Source: Candidatus Tepidiaquacellales bacterium OLB5
Lineage (GTDB): Bacteria > Bacteroidota > Ignavibacteria > Tepidaquicellales > OLB5
Direction of reading: 5' to 3'
Assembly: GCA_001567545.1 (NCBI GenBank)
Contig: LLZO01000024.1
Span: 1-32,124 of the forward strand
Length of the DNA stretch: 32,124 nucleotides
Notes under the pieces: generated by a model
The model's database searches: none
Seen by the model: the letters and a program-made list of their open reading frames with translations, nothing else
What the model was told of the DNA's origin: nothing
Translations under genes and position numbers: made by a program
In this document: positions 1 through 26,388 of the stretch, one piece after another
Position numbering within the stretch: the first letter of the stretch is position 1
Layout: every line of letters begins with the position of its first letter

Positions 1-113
1 TATTATTATAATACAGTTATAGTTTAGTAATCAAATTGGTAATCATCAAGCATAAACCCTGCTTAAAAACGCACGGGAAGTGCCTTAAAACGAATTTTAA
101 AAGGAGGTCTCAA

Positions 114-1067
114 ATGTTCCTGTTCAAACGCGCAAATGGCAAATATTATGTTGGTTTCTATAGTGGTAAAAAACGGGTCAACAGATCACTCAAAACCAGC
201 AACAAAGCAATAGCAAATGAGCGGTTTCGTGAGTTCAAAACCGATAACAAGACGGTCCGTATTTCTGATATGAAAAGGAAAGCTTTGGAATATGCAGGTA
301 TTAATACCAGTACCAAAACTCAATCAGCTTACCGGAACTGCCTTACAAGATTTGAGGAGTATCTGGCTAATGATAAGCTGGCTAATATTTCAGAAACTGA
401 TATCCAAAATTATATAGGATTCAGAAATGGTAACAAATATAGTATGAATATTGAAATAGCCATACTGAAAAAAGCATTTAAGATAGCCTGGGATAAAAAA
501 TGGATCCTTGATAACCCGGCAAAGAATATTAAAAAATTCAGTGTCAAATCACCGGTGAAAGATTTTACACCTGAACAAAAAGAATCCATCCTGGCTGAGC
601 TTAAACAATGCGGCAATATTAATTATTATTATGCCTTTGCACTGGCACTTGAAACGGGAATGAGAAAAGCTGAAATTTGCAATCTTAAATGGAGCCAGGT
701 TAAACATGATAAAATCCTTATACCCAATAAAATGGATGATGAGCCTGAAAATACATATCTGAATGATGCAGCAATGAATATACTTGATATATTGAAGCAG
801 CGTAAAATAAAATCATTTAATAATTATGTGTTCGGGAACAAGCTAAATGAAAGGAATTTAACCCGGACTTTCAACAGGATCCGTGCTAAACTGGGGTTTG
901 ATAATTCAATCCGTTTTCACTCCACCCGGCATACAGCAGTTACGAAATGGGCTAATGAATTACCTTTACATATTGCCCAAGCGCTAGCAAGGCATAGGGA
1001 TATCAAAACTACAATGAATTATGTGCATACAAATGAACAGCAGCTTAGAGAAGCTGTAAACAAATAA
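114..1067 (+). CDS. int: Tyrosine recombinase / phage integrase
   Basis: Site-specific integrase that would insert and excise the phage genome. The catalytic set is visible (numbering from the ATG at 114, 317 aa): R184 in ETGMRKAE, K206 in IPNKMDDE, H269 and R272 in HSTRHT, H294 in ARHRDI, and nucleophile Y303 in TMNYVH. An N-terminal arm/core-binding region (about 1-150) precedes the catalytic domain, as in the XerC/phage integrase family. The frame is open from 36, but AAGGAGGT at 101-108 lies 5 nt before the ATG at 114, which decides the start; this is the strongest ribosome binding site I saw. It is the first gene in the window and is transcribed away from the window edge. The attachment site is probably just to its left, but no repeat proves it. 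Confidence 0.95.
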   Translation: MFLFKRANGKYYVGFYSGKKRVNRSLKTSNKAIANERFREFKTDNKTVRISDMKRKALEYAGINTSTKTQSAYRNCLTRFEEYLANDKLANISETDIQNYIGFRNGNKYSMNIEIAILKKAFKIAWDKKWILDNPAKNIKKFSVKSPVKDFTPEQKESILAELKQCGNINYYYAFALALETGMRKAEICNLKWSQVKHDKILIPNKMDDEPENTYLNDAAMNILDILKQRKIKSFNNYVFGNKLNERNLTRTFNRIRAKLGFDNSIRFHSTRHTAVTKWANELPLHIAQALARHRDIKTTMNYVHTNEQQLREAVNK

Positions 1068-1464: not shown

Positions 1465-1653
1465 ATGAGAGAAATAACAGAAGATAAATTTCCATGTCCC
1501 AAATGTGGTACATTAGCAACAAACGTAAATTATGTGGAGGGACATGAAGATCATCGAACCTTCAGATGCCCGAAATGTGAATTTGTATTTAATACCGTTG
1601 AAAGGATTATCCCGGGAACAGTTAAAGACAAAGATGGAAATATCATTGGATGA
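1465..1653 (+). CDS. Small zinc-ribbon protein, 62 aa
   Basis: Two CxxC pairs, FPCPKCGTLA near residue 10 and FRCPKCEFVF near residue 35, form a classic zinc ribbon that probably binds one zinc ion. Such ribbons bind nucleic acid or act as protein-protein modules; nothing more specific is visible. The stop overlaps the start of the next gene (ATGA at 1650-1653), so the two are probably translationally coupled. Confidence 0.7.
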   Translation: MREITEDKFPCPKCGTLATNVNYVEGHEDHRTFRCPKCEFVFNTVERIIPGTVKDKDGNIIG

Positions 1654-3484: not shown

Positions 3485-3516
3485 AAAAAAGCCGGATGTT
3501 CTAATTCCGGCTTTTT
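3485..3516. terminator. Bidirectional terminator between NYN gene and lysis operon
   Basis: GCCGGA (3491-3496) pairs with TCCGGC (3506-3511), flanked by A6 on the left and T5 on the right, so it can end both the plus-strand NYN transcript and the minus-strand late operon, although the endolysin stop is still 35 bp away. Confidence 0.85.
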
Positions 3517-3550: not shown

Positions 3551-4432
3551 CTATTTGTATAGCTGATGCCATTTTGCAACAGCCCAAACCTGAGAAACAG
3601 GCCTGATACGCTTGAATACACCAAAACCCTCAGCACTTCCATCATTATTAGTATTTCCCTCAATTGTGGTTACAATACCTTTTTTCAGATCAATTCCAAT
3701 TATTATAAACACGTGCCTAGCATTGCCTCTTGAGGGGCTGTAAATATATCCGAAATCACCAATCTCAATCTGACCCTTTTTAACCGATTTAAACCCTGCA
3801 TTTTTCTTTACTGCAAAGTTTACATTATCCGGTGTATAACCACTGCATGTCCATTTATAATCGTGTTTGAGCTGCTTTAAAAGCCAATTCATAAAGAACT
3901 GACACCATGGGGCGCCTGTTGAAATTGTTCCACAGCTACCTATCCTTTGATATTCATTTACTCTCTTACCGCCATTATTATGAGGCTTTTCTTCAACCGT
4001 GCCAATTTCAGCTTTAGCCAATGCAATCACCCGAGTAATGAAATCAATATCACCTGAAGCAACAGGTTCCGGTTCCTGTACCGGAAATGTATCCGGCTTA
4101 ATATTAACTTTATACCATTCTGCAAGCTCTTCATAATGATTAAGAACATACCAATCAGAATAGTTGAATACACCATCAATGGCAAATGGGTAGTTATTTT
4201 TGATATCATCAGGTATCGGCAGCTGATACAAAGTCACTGCATCCTGTATTTTGGTTTGAAATGCCTCTAAGCATTCCTGTGTAACTTCACCGAAATAATC
4301 TGAATCATCCAGTTCACGGACCTTTCCATCGAAGAAACAGGTACCATAACCAAGCTGAATTAACCTGGCTTTCATTGAACCAACTTCGGGCATTGTATCG
4401 CCCAATTTTAAATCATACTTAAAAGGTAACAT
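3551..4432 (-). CDS. Endolysin: peptidoglycan-binding-like domain + CHAP amidase/peptidase
   Basis: Lysis enzyme of 293 aa. Residues about 5-95 resemble a PG_binding_1 three-helix domain (LGDTMPEVGSMKARLIQLGYG ... YFGEVTQECLEAFQ ... AIDGVF). A linker near 115-125 precedes a CHAP-type catalytic domain with Cys177 in GAPWCQFFMNW, His240 in GNARHVFIIIG and a polar partner E258/N260 in TIEGNTN. CHAP enzymes cut peptide or amide bonds of peptidoglycan. There is no signal peptide, so release through a holin is expected, which fits the membrane genes upstream. It is the last gene of the minus-strand late operon, 2 nt after a zinc-ribbon gene. Confidence 0.9.
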   Translation of the reverse strand: MLPFKYDLKLGDTMPEVGSMKARLIQLGYGTCFFDGKVRELDDSDYFGEVTQECLEAFQTKIQDAVTLYQLPIPDDIKNNYPFAIDGVFNYSDWYVLNHYEELAEWYKVNIKPDTFPVQEPEPVASGDIDFITRVIALAKAEIGTVEEKPHNNGGKRVNEYQRIGSCGTISTGAPWCQFFMNWLLKQLKHDYKWTCSGYTPDNVNFAVKKNAGFKSVKKGQIEIGDFGYIYSPSRGNARHVFIIIGIDLKKGIVTTIEGNTNNDGSAEGFGVFKRIRPVSQVWAVAKWHQLYK

Positions 4433-5304: not shown

Positions 5305-5696
5305 GGCTTTGGCTCCGGTTCTTTTACGGTGGTTGTTTTTGTTACTTCGCTGGTAACTTCAACTCCATCTTCTTTTTTTGTTGTTTTGAAATATGTTCCT
5401 ATTTCACTAATAACCTTTCCGGTACCTGCAGACATCAGTTTCTGGAAGATCTTGTATGCTCCATATCCCAAAACCATAAATACAATAAATTGGATTGAAT
5501 CACCAATCCATGATTTAGCCGGTTCAATGTGAATGAATAATTCCGTAGCGAACCAGAATATTGATACAAGAATTAAATTGAAAGCAGCGAACTTCTTATC
5601 AATAGCTACTTTTTTAACCAGCCAAGCTTCAAGAATTCCCAGTAACCACCCGGCAAAAATGAATTCATTTAAACTCCAAACAAATTGTTCAATCAT
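5301..5696 (-). CDS. Holin-like membrane protein, three TM, 131 aa
   Basis: Three hydrophobic segments (about 12-32, 40-56 and 66-86) and a charged C-terminal tail (TTKKEDGVEV ... KEPEPKP), the size and plan of many phage holins, which permeabilise the inner membrane to time lysis. It lies directly before the spanin-like pair. An A7 run in its tail (plus 5373-5379) is read intact, and the ATGA overlap with the next gene supports the frame. Confidence 0.65.
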   Translation of the reverse strand: MIEQFVWSLNEFIFAGWLLGILEAWLVKKVAIDKKFAAFNLILVSIFWFATELFIHIEPAKSWIGDSIQFIVFMVLGYGAYKIFQKLMSAGTGKVISEIGTYFKTTKKEDGVEVTSEVTKTTTVKEPEPKP

Positions 5697-5707
5697 TTTA
5701 AACCCCC

Positions 5708-5944
5708 CTATTTTTTATGTAAAAACTTATCTTCATTGAGAAGCTCCTTAAGCTTTGTATCCCTGTAGCTGGCATAGCCATTCTTAAAGCTTCTTTCAAG
5801 AGCATAGTCAGTGGCTTCCCATTTATACTCAAGAAGCTTTAAACGTCTTAGAATTTTATTAATCTGTGCAAGAATTAAAGTTGCCAACACAATGAACAGC
5901 CATTTACCGATTTCCATTACATATGGATTCTGAAATATTTCCAT
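5708..5944 (-). CDS. Small single-TM protein of lysis region, 78 aa
   Basis: One TM helix (about 11-30, EIGKWLFIVLATLILAQI) followed by a basic amphipathic tail (INKILRRLKLLEYKW ... LHKK). It lies 2 nt after the preceding membrane gene and 11 nt before the holin-like gene. It could be a second holin, an antiholin or a holin partner; nothing decides between these. Confidence 0.6.
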   Translation of the reverse strand: MEIFQNPYVMEIGKWLFIVLATLILAQINKILRRLKLLEYKWEATDYALERSFKNGYASYRDTKLKELLNEDKFLHKK

Positions 5945-18323: not shown

Positions 18324-18749
18324 TTACTTTTTTGACTTCTTATCTTCACCCTTTTTTTCATCCGGCTTTGCTTCCTGAAGCTTTGCTATCTCTTCATTGG
18401 CAGTATTGAGTGAAGTTTTCAAGCTTTCAATCTCTTTATCCTTATCGGATACAGTATCGTTAAGCTTTCCATTTGCTTCCTGAAGCTTTGCTATCTCTTC
18501 ATTGCATGACTTAATCTCTTCCTGCAATGATGTTATTTTTGCACCTGTTTCATCCTTGGGTGAAACATAAACACTAGGAGCTATATCCTTTGGAGGTTCA
18601 GGATCGGGTTTATCCGCAGGCCATGGTCTGACGGATTCTCCATACCCCTTAGCTTCCTGTGCTGATAGGATGATTTGTGAACCTGTGGTAAAATTCTTTG
18701 TATGATGAAAGAACGGATTTACCACTTCATATTTATTTTCTACACCCAT
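18324..18749 (-). CDS. Coiled-coil head-region protein, 141 aa
   Basis: N-terminal part (HHTKNFTTGSQIILSAQEAK, Pro-rich 50-60) followed by a coiled coil (about 72-128) with the nine-residue unit EEIAKLQEA occurring twice 35 residues apart, and a Lys-rich end (DEKKGEDKKSKK). The repeat is identical at DNA level over 33 bp (18367-18399 and 18472-18504). It follows the capsid gene; possibly a decoration or head-fibre protein. Confidence 0.6.
   Translation of the reverse strand: MGVENKYEVVNPFFHHTKNFTTGSQIILSAQEAKGYGESVRPWPADKPDPEPPKDIAPSVYVSPKDETGAKITSLQEEIKSCNEEIAKLQEANGKLNDTVSDKDKEIESLKTSLNTANEEIAKLQEAKPDEKKGEDKKSKK
18367..18504. repeat. Pair of identical 33-bp direct repeats inside coiled-coil gene
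   Basis: 18367-18399 and 18472-18504 are identical, 105 bp apart (35 codons, in frame). Recombination between them would delete exactly 35 residues and keep the frame, so coil length could vary. Confidence 0.85.
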
Positions 18750-20265: not shown

Positions 20266-21144
20266 TTATACTTTACCTTTAATTGTACTAATAGCCCCGG
20301 TAACCATTTCATTTATAGAAGTCTTCAAGTTATTTACTTTCAACTCCTGTAAATTCTTTAGCTGACCTACTATCTCCGTAAATTTGGCAGCATAAATCTT
20401 ATCGTATTTTTTACAAACAGAAATAACAATACTCTCAGCTTCAGCTTTAGAGATGTATTCACCCTCTTTACTTATAGCATTTTTGAGATTAGTGAGTTCA
20501 GTTTTTAAACTCTCTAATTCAGATTTCAGCATGTTCATAGAAAATTCATTAACAAGAAAATTCTTGAACTCAGTTGTTTTAGCTCTTCCGAGCATGTTGT
20601 TAACCGCATCAGGATCAGCCGGAATAAGTACCTTTGATATCTCAACAAGCTCTGATTGCAGAAAATCAATAGTTCCATCAGTTTCATTGCGAATCATCGT
20701 GTCATCATAGGGTTCAATCGGGTTCATACCTGCACTCCATGCTGGTAAATCACCTTCAACAACTGAATTCCAAACATCCTGTGAAAATGGTCTTTTATTA
20801 AAAATAGCTTTGCAAACAAGGTCAGTACCTTCAACATTTTGCCATGGTGAGTTTCCAATAACATAATTCAAAACAGTATCAGGACCTTTGATGCCTAAGA
20901 AATCTCTGGGACCATGATTAAATAATACAAGTGGGTTTTTCTTGTAATTTTCAAGCTTAATGCCATCAGCCCTGAACTTCCAACCATTGCGGTTAAACTT
21001 ATCTGTGATTAGTGTAAATACAACTGAACGCTCATTTTTATCAATACGGGCATTAGTAAATTCAAGTACTGAATCAGCCAGGTATTGTGCATCAGCACCT
21101 GCACCAGCATTATTTATTAGTTTTGGAATCCTGAGATTTTTCAT
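20266..21144 (-). CDS. HK97-family prohead protease with C-terminal coiled coil, 292 aa
   Basis: Matures the prohead by cutting the capsid delta domain. Numbered from the ATG at 21144: catalytic His77 in LVLFNHGPRDFLG and Ser137 in GDLPAWSAGMNP, the S78 arrangement (H ... S in a G-x-x-x-x-[WF]-S-x-G context). Residues 195-292 form a helical, coiled-coil extension (MLKSELESLKTELTNLKNAI) that may act as internal scaffold. An ATG at 21174 is possible, but the A-rich upstream region favours 21144; the gene overlaps the end of the portal gene either way. Confidence 0.88.
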   Translation of the reverse strand: MKNLRIPKLINNAGAGADAQYLADSVLEFTNARIDKNERSVVFTLITDKFNRNGWKFRADGIKLENYKKNPLVLFNHGPRDFLGIKGPDTVLNYVIGNSPWQNVEGTDLVCKAIFNKRPFSQDVWNSVVEGDLPAWSAGMNPIEPYDDTMIRNETDGTIDFLQSELVEISKVLIPADPDAVNNMLGRAKTTEFKNFLVNEFSMNMLKSELESLKTELTNLKNAISKEGEYISKAEAESIVISVCKKYDKIYAAKFTEIVGQLKNLQELKVNNLKTSINEMVTGAISTIKGKV

Positions 21145-22411
21145 TTTTATTGTTTGATTGATTATTGTTTTCATCCGGTGAACCGGCTGATTTATTCTTC
21201 AGGTAAAACATTGGAGTGTCAGAACGTGGGTCACTATCTTTTTCAAAACCATCCCTTTCCCTTAATTCATTTAAGCTAAGCATTCCTGTTTCAGCATATG
21301 TCGTATATTCATTAAGCTGGGTTTCACGGTCAGTTTTCAGTGTATAATCAAACTTCACTACCAGCTTAGAATCATAACGCTCCTTAACAAATAAATCCAG
21401 CATGCTTTCAAATACAACCTCAGCCAAAGGCGAAATCGTATTTTCAAGAAATGTTTGTAATGCTGCACGTGCATTCGCATAATTCACATCATCTGTTATC
21501 GCAATTATCGGCTTAGGAACTTCGAAGATTGAACATATCTCATCACGTGTCATCATACGGCTTTTTGCAAAATCCAACTCTTTAGGCCCTCTGGATTCCT
21601 GAACTGTGACATCGCCCTCAAGGAATAATGGATTTCCAGATTTATCTATTCCTTTATGATGTTCAAGGATCGTATCAATACTTCTCTGATAAACGTCATC
21701 CCTTAACTGTTCCTTGGCTGAATACACTGTTCCATTTAATGTATCGTTCTCAAAGAAGTTCTTCATATACTGAGCAATGTAGTAATCAATATCCGTTGTG
21801 AAGTTCAGCCTGTCAGCTGTTCCCATTCCAACCAGATTACTATCCGGGTTAGGCAGCTTGAAATGCAATATCTCTTCTTTTGAGTACTCCACTTTCCTAC
21901 GGCCACCAAAGTATGTATAACTTGTTATATCCGTCATTTCAGCGTTGAAATTTGGCTGTACATATTTTGATGGTAGTAAGTAAAATCCCTGAGGAATATC
22001 AAATAAACCATTTGGAACATACCAATAAGCATTGCCTTTCTTAAAATCCATATTTGCCATAGAGAGCCATAACAACAATTTCAATGACTGTTTATATGAA
22101 TTTGGATGTGAGATTAAATCCAGGAAAGGATGTTCATAAATTTCTTTTAAACCTTTTCCTGTTTTCTTGTAAAGGTATATATTAGCTTTGGCTATATTTT
22201 TACCCCTGGCATTACCGCAGGCATAAGCATATGACCTGTTCTTATCAATGTTACGGATACCACCAAATACATCGGAATTTGTAATAGGCTTCCACCATTC
22301 AGGATTATAGCCTGATGCAGCATCATTTGTGTGTTTAATCGCAGGGACATCAACGGGAACGCTTTCCCATCCATTTGCAGTGTGTATCGATACTTTTTTT
22401 ATTTCACCCAA
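21110..22411 (-). CDS. Portal protein, HK97/lambda-like, 433 aa
   Basis: Dodecameric DNA channel of the capsid. Recognisable Phage_portal stretches: WKPITNSDVFGGIRNIDKNR, NPNSY-type loop as HPNSYKQSLKLLLWL, DFKKGNAYWYV, EEILHFKLPNPDS, GPKELDFAKSRMMTRDEIC and FEVPKPIIAITDDVNYANAR. The Asn/Lys-rich C-terminal tail overlaps the protease. First gene after RNA element B and its terminator: the ATG is 21 nt beyond the U-tract, so it heads the head-tail-lysis operon. Its A7 run near the N-terminus (plus 22394-22400) is read intact. Confidence 0.95.
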   Translation of the reverse strand: MGEIKKVSIHTANGWESVPVDVPAIKHTNDAASGYNPEWWKPITNSDVFGGIRNIDKNRSYAYACGNARGKNIAKANIYLYKKTGKGLKEIYEHPFLDLISHPNSYKQSLKLLLWLSMANMDFKKGNAYWYVPNGLFDIPQGFYLLPSKYVQPNFNAEMTDITSYTYFGGRRKVEYSKEEILHFKLPNPDSNLVGMGTADRLNFTTDIDYYIAQYMKNFFENDTLNGTVYSAKEQLRDDVYQRSIDTILEHHKGIDKSGNPLFLEGDVTVQESRGPKELDFAKSRMMTRDEICSIFEVPKPIIAITDDVNYANARAALQTFLENTISPLAEVVFESMLDLFVKERYDSKLVVKFDYTLKTDRETQLNEYTTYAETGMLSLNELRERDGFEKDSDPRSDTPMFYLKNKSAGSPDENNNQSNNKNEKSQDSKTNK

Positions 22412-22432
22412 GTATGTGTTTTATTATAAAAC

Positions 22433-22482
22433 AAAAAGGGCATCTGCAATAACCTTTCAAATGAAAGTTACTACAAATACCC
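22433..22482 (-). terminator. Intrinsic terminator of RNA element B
   Basis: Long hairpin (GGGTAT ... ATGCCC, with inner stem AACTTTC/GAAAGGTT) at 22482-22438, then T5 at 22437-22433 on the minus strand. It ends 21 nt before the portal ATG. Confidence 0.8.
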
Positions 22483-22555
22483 TTGCTGGATGCACACTTA
22501 CTTGAGTGTCTTTACGCTACCGGCTACTTTGTCAGTGCCCGAAATGTTTAAGAAC
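22433..22555 (-). ncRNA. RNA element B: conserved 48-nt motif plus terminator, upstream of portal
   Basis: The predicted transcript starts near 22555. The motif spans 22527-22480: GTAGCCGGTAG, 8 nt, stem CACT, loop CAAGTA, stem AGTG, TG, 6 nt, GCAAGGG. The same 48-nt layout without gaps is found at 26166-26119 with a different but still paired stem. The GGG at its end is the first part of the terminator hairpin. GCAUC (22493-22489) could pair with GAUGC in the 3' arm of the terminator (22444-22440), a possible antiterminator. I do not recognise the family. Confidence 0.75.
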
Positions 22556-22559
22556 TATA

Positions 22560-22590
22560 CAAACATAGTTAATAAAATTTGATTTGTCAA
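22560..22590 (-). promoter_or_regulatory. Consensus Bacteroidota promoter overlapping the terminase stop
   Basis: Minus strand TTG (22590-22588), 20 nt, TATGTTTG (22567-22560). The TTG shares bases with the TGA stop of the large terminase gene. It starts a transcript about 5 nt downstream that first makes RNA element B, then, if termination is overcome, portal and the late genes. Confidence 0.8.
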
Positions 22591-24221
22591 GTTTCAGGTT
22601 CCTTTTTCTTAATTATCGTAATACGAATACCTGTTAATTCATCACCAAACCTGCGGTTTAAAACCCCTGTTAGAAAATCTACTTGGTCATCATTCTTTCC
22701 ATTTGGAAATTGTTTACACTCAAGCAAGAATGCTTGAATCCAGCTTGCACCTTCTAAAAGATGAACACGACCTGCAGCAAGTATTGGTGTGATTGATTTC
22801 GCACGTGTGACTTTATCATCCTTTGGCGGTTTATCTTCAACAATGTTTATATACTTTCCATTATCCAGTTTTTCAACTTTAAGCTGTTGAACACATGAAA
22901 TACCTGTAGCCTTTGGCTCAAATGCACATTCAGATTTATATGAATAACCATTCCGAGTTATGAAATCCTTGTAATTTGTGATGAACTTCGGAAACGGTAA
23001 ATTAACAACCGAAAGGTCCCAAATGTACATATTCCCTTCATGCAATGTATAACAACCTGTGGCTGATTTATCACTCTTTTGTTTTCCATAGCCGGTATCA
23101 GAATAAAAGTCTTTAGTAACTTCTTTTGGTAAATCAGTTGATTTGAATGTTTTAAACCAAGCCGCTTTTATTATATCGCCTTCCTCAGGTGCAGGTCGCT
23201 GTTGATACAAGCTAACAAATATCTGAGGTGCTTTAAGTTTAATATTATCCAACCTTTCAAGTGAATGCATCTCTTCCCATAATGCCTCACCGATTTTACG
23301 TGGGTCATCAGGATTGCTTGCATCTTCTTTTACAGCAGGGAATATCACAATATCCCATTTAAGTATATCATCCGGGAATAAATCACAAAGCATCTTATAC
23401 TCACCGATTAATTCAGTGAAAGATAAGCTATCTTTATCAATCAACACATCGATGTATTTAAGATTATATGCTTTTTGCTGGAGCCTGTCATAATCAGCTA
23501 AAATAATCTTTCCGGCTAAATCATCTTCATGCCATCTGGTCATTGTTAGCATTTTTTGGGTTTTATTATGACATCTTGTTTCAACTATGGCATTATAAAA
23601 ATTCCAGGCATGTTCACGCTCTGTGGGTGACATTGCTTCCTTGTAACCTTTAACCGGATCATCAATGCTGAAAATATCAGCCCTGAATCCTGTGATTGCA
23701 CCGTCAACACCAACAGATCTGTATGAACCCTCGTATCCGACTATTTCAAAATAATCCGCACGTTCAGCATACCTGAACTTAGATACATCCTTGTTATCAG
23801 ATAAACGAAATATCTCTGAATATTCAGAGGACTTCATTATCCTTTGGCAATCCCTGTTAAATGATTTTGATAATTCAGATGAGTATGATGCACCTACAAA
23901 TTTAAGATTTGGATTCCTACCAAGCATATATGCAGGTAAACGTCTCGATACTAATTCACTCTTTCCATGCTGGGGCGGCATAAATACCATAAGGTTCTTA
24001 ATGATACCTGTGGAAAATAACTCCAGTTTATGGCACATAAATTTATGATGCCAGTTCAACTGGTAATCAGGTTTAGTATACAAAACAAAATCTAAAAAGC
24101 TTTTTCTTTGTTTTTCGGTGAGGTTATATTTATTTACCTTTTCCTTGTATTCCCTTGACTGATTTTGTCTTTTCCTGTATTCCAGTTCCGCTGCTGCTAA
24201 TTCTTCCGGAGTTGCTCTCAA
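22587..24221 (-). CDS. Terminase large subunit, 544 aa
   Basis: Packaging motor ATPase/nuclease. Walker A MPPQHGKSEL (81-90), Walker B IFSIDD (183-188), coupling motif LTMTRWHEDD (about 226-235). RNase H-like nuclease acidic residues: Asp375 in DFYSDTGYG, Glu in CAFEPKATG, and Asp in GKNDDQVDFLTG. No ATG exists at the N-terminus; the frame opens after a TAG and the likely start is TTG at 24221 (MRATPEELAAAELEYRKR), overlapping the small terminase gene by 92 nt, so translation is probably coupled. Confidence 0.96.
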   Translation of the reverse strand: MRATPEELAAAELEYRKRQNQSREYKEKVNKYNLTEKQRKSFLDFVLYTKPDYQLNWHHKFMCHKLELFSTGIIKNLMVFMPPQHGKSELVSRRLPAYMLGRNPNLKFVGASYSSELSKSFNRDCQRIMKSSEYSEIFRLSDNKDVSKFRYAERADYFEIVGYEGSYRSVGVDGAITGFRADIFSIDDPVKGYKEAMSPTEREHAWNFYNAIVETRCHNKTQKMLTMTRWHEDDLAGKIILADYDRLQQKAYNLKYIDVLIDKDSLSFTELIGEYKMLCDLFPDDILKWDIVIFPAVKEDASNPDDPRKIGEALWEEMHSLERLDNIKLKAPQIFVSLYQQRPAPEEGDIIKAAWFKTFKSTDLPKEVTKDFYSDTGYGKQKSDKSATGCYTLHEGNMYIWDLSVVNLPFPKFITNYKDFITRNGYSYKSECAFEPKATGISCVQQLKVEKLDNGKYINIVEDKPPKDDKVTRAKSITPILAAGRVHLLEGASWIQAFLLECKQFPNGKNDDQVDFLTGVLNRRFGDELTGIRITIIKKKEPET

Positions 24222-24681
24222 AGTTTCTCTCAGCTATAATTTGTTTTGGTGATACACCATCTTTAATGATTCTCTCAAGCTCATCATCACTGAATTGTTT
24301 CATATCATAATTTTCATTAACATTAACTATCAGTACCTTATCAAGTCCCAGCAATCTTAGACGGCGCTGTTGAATCCGCATCTTTGCATTTATTTCCTGT
24401 ATTACTTTCTGACGTGTATCCTTATCAGTACCTGTTTTATTATGAGTGACTGTAATCCGGCTTTCCCATTGCTCAAGCTTTATCAATTCCTTTTTGGCAA
24501 TTTCGCTGATTTCGCTTTCATTCTGTTTTTCCCATTCAGTCTTGATTTTCTTAATATCCTTTTCAATCTGAGCGTGTGAAACACCAAGTTCTTTACCGAT
24601 TTCACGGAATGACATCCCACCAAGCCATAAAAACCAAGCCTTCTTTTTTCTCTCTTCGGTTAAAGATTTTCTGCTAGTCAT
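24130..24681 (-). CDS. Terminase small subunit, 183 aa
   Basis: DNA-recognition subunit. Helix-turn-helix near residues 22-48 (GGMSFREIGKELGVSHAQIE), then a basic helical oligomerisation region (KMRIQQRRLRLLGLDKV). Immediately upstream of and overlapping the large subunit, as usual. The last 30 codons overlap the large-subunit gene and are Ser/Gly/Lys-rich, probably a flexible tail. Confidence 0.88.
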   Translation of the reverse strand: MTSRKSLTEERKKKAWFLWLGGMSFREIGKELGVSHAQIEKDIKKIKTEWEKQNESEISEIAKKELIKLEQWESRITVTHNKTGTDKDTRQKVIQEINAKMRIQQRRLRLLGLDKVLIVNVNENYDMKQFSDDELERIIKDGVSPKQIIAERNFESNSGRISSSGTGIQEKTKSVKGIQGKGK

Positions 24682-24714: not shown

Positions 24715-26066
24715 TTAAGAAATAAATCGTTTTTTGTCTAAAATCTTACCATTTAACAAAATCCTGCATTCAAGATCATTATTTTTACAATACAAAACAT
24801 ATCTTTTTACGATAACATCGCAGTATTTTGGGTCTAATTCCATCAAATATGCATCTCTTTTCATCTGTTCACACCCCATCAAGGTCGACCCTGACCCTCC
24901 AAAAGCATCAATAACACCGTCACCTTGCTGTGAATTCTTTTTTTAAAGCCCTCTCCGAAAGCCTCACCGGCTTTTGTGTGGGATGAACATAATCATTTGT
25001 GTTATCACGATTGATAAACCATAAGTCCAAAACCTCAATAAAACTGTCAAATGACAAAGAATGAACATCTTTAAGATTTGCTAGTTTCTTATTTGTAAAA
25101 TGCTTTTTTCCCTGCTTCCATCCAACAATGCACGGTTCAAAACACCTGTGATATTCCTGACCATAGGAAAATACAAAGCGTTCTTTAACCCAAATGATGG
25201 TTTGACTTTTATGCCAGGTTGCAGCTTCCAGTGCCTGCAGGTTAATCACAATATTTTTATCTGCATACCACCAATACAAAACACAATCATCAGTTGTATA
25301 TTTATAAAGATTTTCCAGAGTTTTAGTGTAAAGCTCTAAAGCCTCTTCAGGCTTTTTGTTATCATTAAATATTTTACCTTCATTTCCATATTTACCTTTT
25401 GAGTAAGAATTACCAGCAGGTGATTTGTAGTCTACATTGTATGGGGGATCAGTATGAACAAGTCTGGCTTTTTTATTCTTTAACAGGAGTTTATAATATT
25501 TTTCCTCTTTTGAATCACCGCAAATTAGCCTGTGGTTATTCAGCTGATAGAGGTCTCCCAATTTGGTAAATGGTTTTTTAATTTTTTCATATTCAGCCTC
25601 AGCATCGAAGTCATCTTCCTTAACTTGAATATCATCAAAAAAGGATAGTTCATCTTTACCAAATCCCCAATTACTTAAATCATCAAAATTGAAATTTTTA
25701 CCCAAAACCTCAAAATCCCACTCACCCCCGGCTTTGTTTGCAATGATATTTGCTTTATCGCATTGTTTCTTTGTCCACTTCACCTGCCTGTAGGAAAATT
25801 TCTCACCTTTATAAATAACATATCCTAAAGCAACAGTGCCTGTTCTAGTGGGTTTATTATGCTTTTCAATTATTTTAATCTCACAATCTTCAAGATTAAA
25901 TGCTTTTGTCCTTTGGTTACCGCTGATTATCTGGTTTGAATTCACATCATGAACCACACCTGAGAGATCACCTAACTCATCAAGCCATTGCTGGAGTTCG
26001 GTAAATTGCTTTTCAGATATCTTTCTTGGATTTTTTTGAAAATTCTTTTAGTTCTGTTGTTTTCAT
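24715..26066 (-). CDS. ParB-like domain + DNA adenine/cytosine-N4 methyltransferase, frameshifted at two A7 runs (449 aa when joined)
   Basis: Joined reading: MKTTELKEFSKNPRKISEKQ ... GDLSGVVHDV ... ISGNQRTKAF is a ParB/sulfiredoxin-like N-terminal domain (about 1-90), followed by an N6/N4 methyltransferase with catalytic DPPY (LVHTDPPYNVDY), VHPTQKPVRL, and the SAM-binding motif DAFGGSGSTLMG near the end. The raw sequence breaks it twice: A7 at plus 26031-26037 stops the first 17 codons from joining the rest, and A7 at plus 24938-24944 cuts off the FGGSGS motif. Removing one base at each restores the whole protein. This family often lies beside terminase genes. It is the first gene after RNA element A. 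Confidence 0.85.
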
Positions 26067-26080
26067 AGATTTTTTAAAAT

Positions 26081-26118
26081 AAAAAAAGCAGTTCAAAACT
26101 ATTGATAGTTCTAAACTG
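26081..26118 (-). terminator. Intrinsic terminator of RNA element A
   Basis: GCAGTT ... AACTGC with an inner AACTAT/ATAGTT stem (26118-26088), then T7 on the minus strand (26087-26081). Confidence 0.8.
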
Positions 26119-26166
26119 CCCTTGCCTGCTACACCGCTACTTGGCGGCCTTGCAACTACCGGCTAC
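26081..26166 (-). ncRNA. RNA element A: second copy of the conserved 48-nt motif plus terminator, upstream of methyltransferase
   Basis: Motif at 26166-26119: GTAGCCGGTAG, 8 nt, stem CCGC, loop CAAGTA, stem GCGG, TG, 6 nt, GCAAGGG. All four stem pairs are kept relative to element B although most bases differ (CCGC/GCGG versus CACT/AGTG), and the flanking pair is G-U here and A-U there. AGCAG (26130-26126) can pair with CTGCT at the 3' arm of the terminator (26091-26087). It begins 6 nt after the stop of the 60-codon ORF and ends 15 nt before the methyltransferase ATG. Confidence 0.75.
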
Positions 26167-26172
26167 GTTTAA

Positions 26173-26355
26173 TTAACTGTAGTTAGATTTCAAATGTGTT
26201 TTACGGTCACGGATTATTAATACCCGTTCCTGTTTAACACCGTTTTCATTTTCAAGCTTTATATCAAACTTCTTTTCAGGCTCTCTTGTTTCAATCACAA
26301 TCTCATCTGCAATGACTTTGAATGTGCAGCCCTTTACGTTTATTCTTATTTTCAT
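26173..26355 (-). CDS. Small hypothetical protein, 60 aa
   Basis: Short, charged, beta-rich protein (MKIRINVKGCTFKVIADEIV). No recognisable domain. Its ATG lies only 2 nt after a perfect -7 promoter box, so the mRNA would be leaderless or nearly so. It ends 6 nt before RNA element A and may be the leader ORF of the methyltransferase-terminase operon. Confidence 0.55.
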   Translation of the reverse strand: MKIRINVKGCTFKVIADEIVIETREPEKKFDIKLENENGVKQERVLIIRDRKTHLKSNYS

Positions 26356-26357
26356 TA

Positions 26358-26388
26358 CAAAGATAGCTTATAAGTTATTTTTTAACAA
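26358..26388 (-). promoter_or_regulatory. Consensus Bacteroidota promoter before the 60-codon ORF
   Basis: Minus strand TTG (26388-26386), 20 nt, TATCTTTG (26365-26358). It lies in the 106-bp divergent region shared with the plus-strand gene at 26462 and would drive the ORF60, RNA A, methyltransferase, TerS, TerL unit. Confidence 0.8.

Follow-up and report, generated by a model that had tools for sequence, protein, structure and literature searches.

A duplicated RNA element joined to intrinsic terminators, a candidate transcription attenuator for the packaging and late operons of a probable Bacteroidota prophage

The portal gene of this prophage is directly preceded by a promoter, a short RNA motif and an intrinsic terminator, which raises the question of whether the terminator works as a switch for the late operon. 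The timing of late-gene expression in temperate phages of Bacteroidota appears to be little studied, and a literature search on this subject found no paper. The window, by which we mean the whole analysed stretch of 32,124 nt, is one contig of a 3.27-Mb draft genome and holds most of a temperate phage, whose host is probably a Bacteroidota bacterium. Read from right to left, the genes of the minus strand begin with a helicase/methyltransferase, small genes, a ParB/methyltransferase gene and the probable small subunit of terminase, and continue with the terminase large subunit (TerL), portal, maturation protease, major capsid protein, connector, several unassigned genes that are presumably tail genes, and endolysin. 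The ParB/methyltransferase gene is the first of the block that ends with TerL. The following genes and operon end are referred to below:

36-1067, plus strand: integrase
3485..3516, both strands: bidirectional terminator closing the late operon, without the RNA element
3551-4432, minus strand: endolysin, at the end of the head, tail and lysis genes
21110..22411, minus strand: portal gene with a TTG start at 22411, first in the late operon (PF04860 2e-49, phrog_2662)
22587..24221, minus strand: terminase large subunit, TerL (phrog_38 6e-93, PF03237)
24130..24681, minus strand: probable terminase small subunit (weak matches)
24920..26066, minus strand: ParB/DNA-methyltransferase gene (phrog_498, PF01555)
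26173..26355, minus strand: 60-aa ORF, its end at the 5' boundary of element A

The probable small subunit matched phrog_645, annotated as RNase E, at 1.8e-11 and phrog_1206, a terminase small subunit, at 2e-5. The ParB/methyltransferase gene apparently begins MKTTELKEFSKK at the ATG at 26066, a frame in which a stop is soon met; across an A7 run (26037-26031) it differs by one base from the long frame that starts at GTG 25957, and this break may be an assembly error, a true frameshift or a programmed frameshift. Elsewhere in the window, a perfect 33-nt direct repeat (18367-18399 and 18472-18504, 105 nt apart) lies within the gene at 18324-18749.

On inspection of the region before the portal gene, we found the order of parts that the earlier note had described, and a second copy of the RNA motif was detected upstream of the ParB/methyltransferase gene:

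22560..22590, minus strand: promoter B, TTG-N20-TATGTTTG, of the Bacteroidota TAnnTTTG type, with a predicted transcript start at about 22555
22480..22530, minus strand: core of RNA element B, 51 nt, AAAGUAGCCGGUAG....AAG-stem-CAAGUA-stem-...GCAAGGG
22433..22483, minus strand: intrinsic terminator B with its T-tract (hairpin 22483-22437, about 20 pairs, then T5)
26358..26388, minus strand: promoter-like site, TTG-N20-TATCTTTG, lying in an intergenic gap on the 5' side of element A
26119..26169, minus strand: core of RNA element A, 51 nt, the second copy
26081..26123, minus strand: intrinsic terminator A with its T-tract (hairpin 26123-26084)

The claimed overlap of a consensus promoter with the terminase stop was borne out, as the -35 box of promoter B contains the TerL stop TGA (22589-22587). 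Viewed as a sigma-70 promoter, this site reads TTGACA (22590-22585), a 17-nt spacer and TATGTT (22567-22562), which agrees with the consensus at 10/12 positions; the Bacteroidota consensus TAnnTTTG (as cited in PMC7366714) suits it better. Sites of the TAnnTTTG type are not enriched on the minus strand of the window as a whole (3 versus 1.6 expected), and only 0.012 would be expected in the 190-nt stretch between TerL and portal. Element B, the terminator and the portal start follow as the earlier note had stated, with 21 nt between T-tract and start codon, and the head, tail and lysis genes continue on the same strand as far as endolysin. Thus, promoter, structured leader, intrinsic terminator and coding sequence succeed one another in the same direction of transcription, which is the arrangement of an attenuator. 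The promoter-like site before element A is uncertain, because the ATG of the next ORF comes 2 nt later. That 60-aa ORF had no homologue and no Pfam match, and its single-sequence structure model (pLDDT 72) had no PDB match better than E 0.4; with no recognisable relatives and no family match, it was rejected as a candidate regulator.

Comparison of the two cores showed 35 identical bases over 51 ungapped columns, which is 7.2 sd above a background of 12.8 +/- 3.1, while the next best 51-mer in the whole window, on both strands, had 27 matches. The 40 bases flanking the elements on each side are unrelated (8/40 identical), so the element is a sharply bounded unit. The copies lie 3.6 kb apart on the same strand, about 25 nt (B) and about 185 nt (A) downstream of the promoter-like sites. 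Each runs directly into a strong intrinsic terminator, the terminator sequences being otherwise unrelated, and each precedes the start of a gene module, the distance from T-tract to start codon being 14 nt at A.

To place these terminators among the others, we scanned all of the window for stable hairpins followed by a T-tract. The strong terminators found on the minus strand were A (26087, -18.3 kcal/mol), B (22437, -26.3 kcal/mol) and the closing 3490/3512, and the remaining minus-strand matches were imperfect hairpins, nearly all within genes. A and B are therefore the only strong internal terminators of the minus strand in the window, and both carry the element, whereas those that end operons, at 3490/3512 (both strands) and at 2842 (plus strand), do not. 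Beyond B, the scan found no strong terminator until the late operon closes. Copy B of the element together with its terminator folds with z = -5.4.

RNA folding of the two copies yielded a hairpin, P3, and a longer-range helix between leader and terminator:

22494..22509, minus strand: hairpin P3 of element B, ACACU CAAGUA AGUGU
26133..26148, minus strand: hairpin P3 of element A, GCCGC CAAGUA GCGGU
22473..22532, minus strand: candidate antiterminator of B, pairing ACAAA (22532-22528) with UUUGU (22477-22473) and GCC (22524-22522) with GGU (22481-22479)
26112..26171, minus strand: candidate antiterminator of A, pairing UAAAC (26171-26167) with GUUUA (26116-26112) and GCC with GGC

P3 is a 5-bp stem (columns 25-29 with 36-40) that closes an invariant CAAGUA loop, and its two versions differ by three double compensatory changes and one single one. 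RNAalifold also predicted an outer helix of columns 2-6 with 57-61, in register and with three double changes, together with the pairing of GCC with GGC/GGU. In column shuffles, a single stem with 5 bp or more and three or more double changes arose in 0.7-1%, and two compatible stems of that quality arose in 0/20,000. When the pairing partners were slid by 1-3 columns, 29-42% of the pairs were kept, whereas the actual structure keeps all of them. The covariation evidence comes from two sequences. The hairpin P3 is shown by its compensatory changes between the copies.

In both copies, the 5' arm of the terminator supplies the 3' strand both to the outer helix and to GCC:GGC, so that this fold and the terminator would be mutually exclusive, as expected of an antiterminator. 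The duplex energy of the outer helix, which is A/U-rich, was no better than that of shuffled leaders (p 0.51 and 0.64). Stepwise folding favoured the outer helix for leader A and other pairings for leader B, and the fold of the fully transcribed terminator was far more stable than any alternative. The antiterminator helix is thus supported, but more weakly than the hairpin. An antiterminator of another kind had been suggested earlier, in which GCAUC of the motif pairs with the 3' arm of the terminator. The GCAUC:GAUGC complementarity exists, but it spans 5 bp, which is about chance for such stretches, and the fold in which it was forced reached -27 instead of -40 kcal/mol, a cost of 13 kcal/mol with which it cannot compete with the terminator. 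The matching AGCAG:CUGCU pairing in A was equally weak (-23.3 versus -35.6) and was rejected. Between the two proposals, the leader-terminator helix is the better candidate for an antiterminator.

Two further pairing or coding possibilities were considered and set aside. Across the TTG start of portal, UACUUG (22414-22409) could pair base for base with the CAAGUA loop; this match is exact in B and absent at A, and we took it as chance. A leader peptide in B was rejected by eye, since the leader frame that ends at its UGA has no start codon.

To determine whether the element occurs elsewhere, we searched several collections. Rfam gave nothing at the gathering threshold, just sub-threshold chance matches at E up to 10. 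Five exact-core patterns searched against 2.9 million viral contigs returned chance matches, none with both hairpin and terminator, and one exact-core pattern searched against about 85,000 species genomes returned three chance-like matches, compared with about six expected by our own estimate. Covariance models R1 (run on 294 genomes of the class) and R2 (on 395 genomes of the phylum, a sample that overlaps the former) found the element in the window only, except for a weak R1 match in one genome (E 0.007), which was rejected: it has neither hairpin nor terminator, and it scores lower with the structured model R2. In locus L067, the intergenic stretch 1501-1569 (minus strand) has GTAGCCGGTAG, AAAG and GCAAGGG in the order of the element, without hairpin or terminator, and this resemblance is probably chance. 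No element was found in 80 viral-contig loci chosen by TerL alignment or in 5 phage records, and BLAST against phage and plasmid records gave nothing relevant. In most of the TerL relatives, the next ORF lies within tens of nt of TerL. Parabacteroides phage PD482P1 has a 378-nt gap after TerL (5461-5839) with terminators and promoter-like sites; there the terminator stands before the promoters, which is the ordinary order, in contrast to the window. The folded RNA of elements A and B has apparently been undescribed until now. Its two copies in one phage are the whole basis for the element, which limits our confidence in it and raises the question of its origin.

We then compared the portal locus with the closest relatives found for it in genomes of the same class, which belong to a sister family of the same order and encode portal proteins of 36-41% identity. 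The string TAnnTTTGTATRGT stands directly 5' of the portal gene in five relatives, whose whole genomes hold just 2 to 10 such strings each, and its counterpart in the window is TATGTTTGTATAGT. Portal is thus preceded immediately by a conserved promoter. At the portal loci of the sister-family relatives, no element was found by the covariance model, so the element and its terminator appear to have been inserted between a conserved promoter and the portal gene. As a whole, the promoters are supported, but less firmly than the anatomy, the duplication and the hairpin.

Other features of these loci were also observed. An inverted repeat coincides in part with the portal promoter; it reads ACCATA-N6-TATGGT in three relatives and AACTAT-N6-ATAGTT at about 22571-22554 in the window, and is possibly an operator for a dimeric regulator. 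Portal-like genes of this 36-41% identity occur in many sister-family genomes, several of them carry in-frame stops, and the terminase of the window was found in only one of those genomes, on a different contig. The sister-family loci may belong to a phage element that is decaying or domesticated, or to a gene transfer agent.

What would the element do at these two positions? On balance, we favour the reading that the region is a regulated transcription attenuator, an RNA-gated terminator present twice in the prophage, for the packaging operon and for the late operon. Whether it initiates at promoter B or comes in from the terminase genes, polymerase would pass first through the 51-nt element and next through the terminator. 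The default state would be a formed terminator hairpin, with the operon from portal to lysis off and transcripts of the terminase genes ending there as well. In the activated state, the element would be held in the alternative fold, in which the leader-terminator helix occupies the 5' arm of the terminator, and polymerase would read through into the late operon. The stabiliser would most likely be a phage-encoded RNA-binding factor made after induction, which would recognise the CAAGUA hairpin and the conserved single-stranded blocks, namely the invariant GUAGCCGGUAG and GCAAGG. The same factor acting at element A would open the ParB/methyltransferase-terminase genes, so both modules would be switched on together. 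We observed the anatomy, the duplication and one element at each strong internal terminator; we infer that a factor is involved, that its binding turns the switch on, and when this happens.

Other explanations were weighed against this attenuator. The terminator might simply end the terminase transcript, while promoter B makes a small non-coding RNA of about 120 nt and portal is expressed by read-through or from an unseen start. Promoter, structured RNA and terminator do form a complete small-RNA unit, terminator B also ends transcripts coming from TerL, and the conserved unpaired blocks would suit a trans-acting RNA. However, element A lies about 185 nt from the nearest promoter-like site and behind an ORF, both copies stand directly before gene starts, and no TAnnTTTG box lies between the terminator and portal; the relatives have the promoter motif directly before portal without a terminator, implying that the promoter serves portal. 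We consider this explanation fairly unlikely. The earlier note had modelled the switch on put RNA and Q, and a put- or nut-like RNA that modifies polymerase to ignore adjacent and later terminators would agree with two related copies past promoter-like sites, a spacing like that of HK022 putL and putR (PMC9378689), and with a conserved-loop hairpin and conserved single-stranded blocks, which resemble sites bound by protein or polymerase. Since no strong terminator lies beyond B within the late operon, such processive antitermination would have no downstream target, and a constitutive put directly before a terminator would cancel that terminator. Neither a boxA was noticed nor an N-like protein identified, and the one short hairpin of the 51-nt core differs from the two long stem-loops of the roughly 70-nt put, which makes processive antitermination distinctly unlikely. 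With one element for each internal terminator and no later target, a local gate is favoured over put-, nut- or Q-like action; two put-like sites, each behind a promoter of its own, are a less likely alternative, and HK022 has exactly two such sites. Of the proposed late-operon switch, the transcriptional gate gained support from the second copy at a terminator and gene start and from the covarying stems, whereas the put and Q models were not supported and serve as analogies only.

The pattern of invariant internal-loop nucleotides, variable but paired stems and a terminator as expression platform is also that of an aptamer, and the element might be a ligand-sensing riboswitch of an undescribed class that governs phage packaging genes. 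We hold this to be very improbable, as Rfam yielded nothing but chance matches up to E 10, no further copy was present in any collection searched although riboswitch classes are as a rule widespread, and packaging genes are an unlikely target for a metabolite. A DNA-level site for packaging or partition, which the position of the two copies on either side of the ParB/methyltransferase-terminase block might suggest, is still harder to credit, because the compensatory stem changes and the strict link to a terminator in the same orientation point to RNA. A discrete structured RNA made between the terminase and portal genes could also recall the packaging RNA (pRNA) of phi29; the second copy precedes the ParB/methyltransferase gene, no three-way junction was predicted, and to our knowledge pRNA occurs only in phi29-type phages, so this reading has hardly any probability.

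With two covarying copies, each fused to one of the only two strong internal terminators of the prophage, this RNA is a concrete and testable candidate for the switch that times the late genes. We tentatively suggest, as a possibility that falls short of an expectation, that it represents a new class of phage RNA antitermination, in which a compact module of hairpin and conserved loop is fused to terminators, and through which a temperate phage of Bacteroidota would open its packaging and morphogenesis operons by means of a single phage factor or of the RNA alone. Action without protein would place the element among the very few protein-free antitermination RNAs; binding by a phage protein would make the two a new RNA-protein pair and a useful part for genetic control in Bacteroidota.

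That the element works like an attenuator is plausible, and its placement in any named antitermination family is not established. In lambda, the action of Q depends on a DNA site and on a pause close to the promoter. The pR'-tR' region resembles the portal locus in having a promoter and then a terminator that gates the late operon, and differs in that the RNA element here is duplicated and structured. No Q homologue was found among the window proteins scanned; the contig ends at 32,124, and part of the phage may be missing. The ANTAR target motif is a two-hexaloop RNA, and it shares with the element a hexaloop hairpin adjoining a terminator, although only one such hairpin is present here; the ANTAR domain gave no match in the assembly, and the control genomes were likewise without a match. 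As with HK022 put, one phage carries two related copies of the RNA, which lie past promoters and in a context of termination. In HK022, putL follows closely on PL and putR stands about 270 nt beyond PR, and each put RNA has about 70 nt with two long stem-loops (PMC9378689). It binds the zinc-binding domain of the RNA polymerase beta-prime subunit without protein factors and suppresses distant terminators. In contrast, the element has one short hairpin in a 51-nt core, serves packaging and late operons rather than early ones, is fused to its terminator and has no distant terminators to suppress. In the leaders recognised by BglG-LicT proteins, the structured RNA (RAT) overlaps the 5' arm of the terminator and forms a mutually exclusive antiterminator (PMC3369936). 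A gene with the CAT_RBD domain (PF03123) was absent from the host assembly (93% complete), while the controls were positive in 4/14 genomes. The element resembles these leaders in that it reaches into the 5' arm of an intrinsic terminator and has a candidate antiterminator that would exclude the terminator, and differs from them in its sequence and structure and in its position before phage structural genes.
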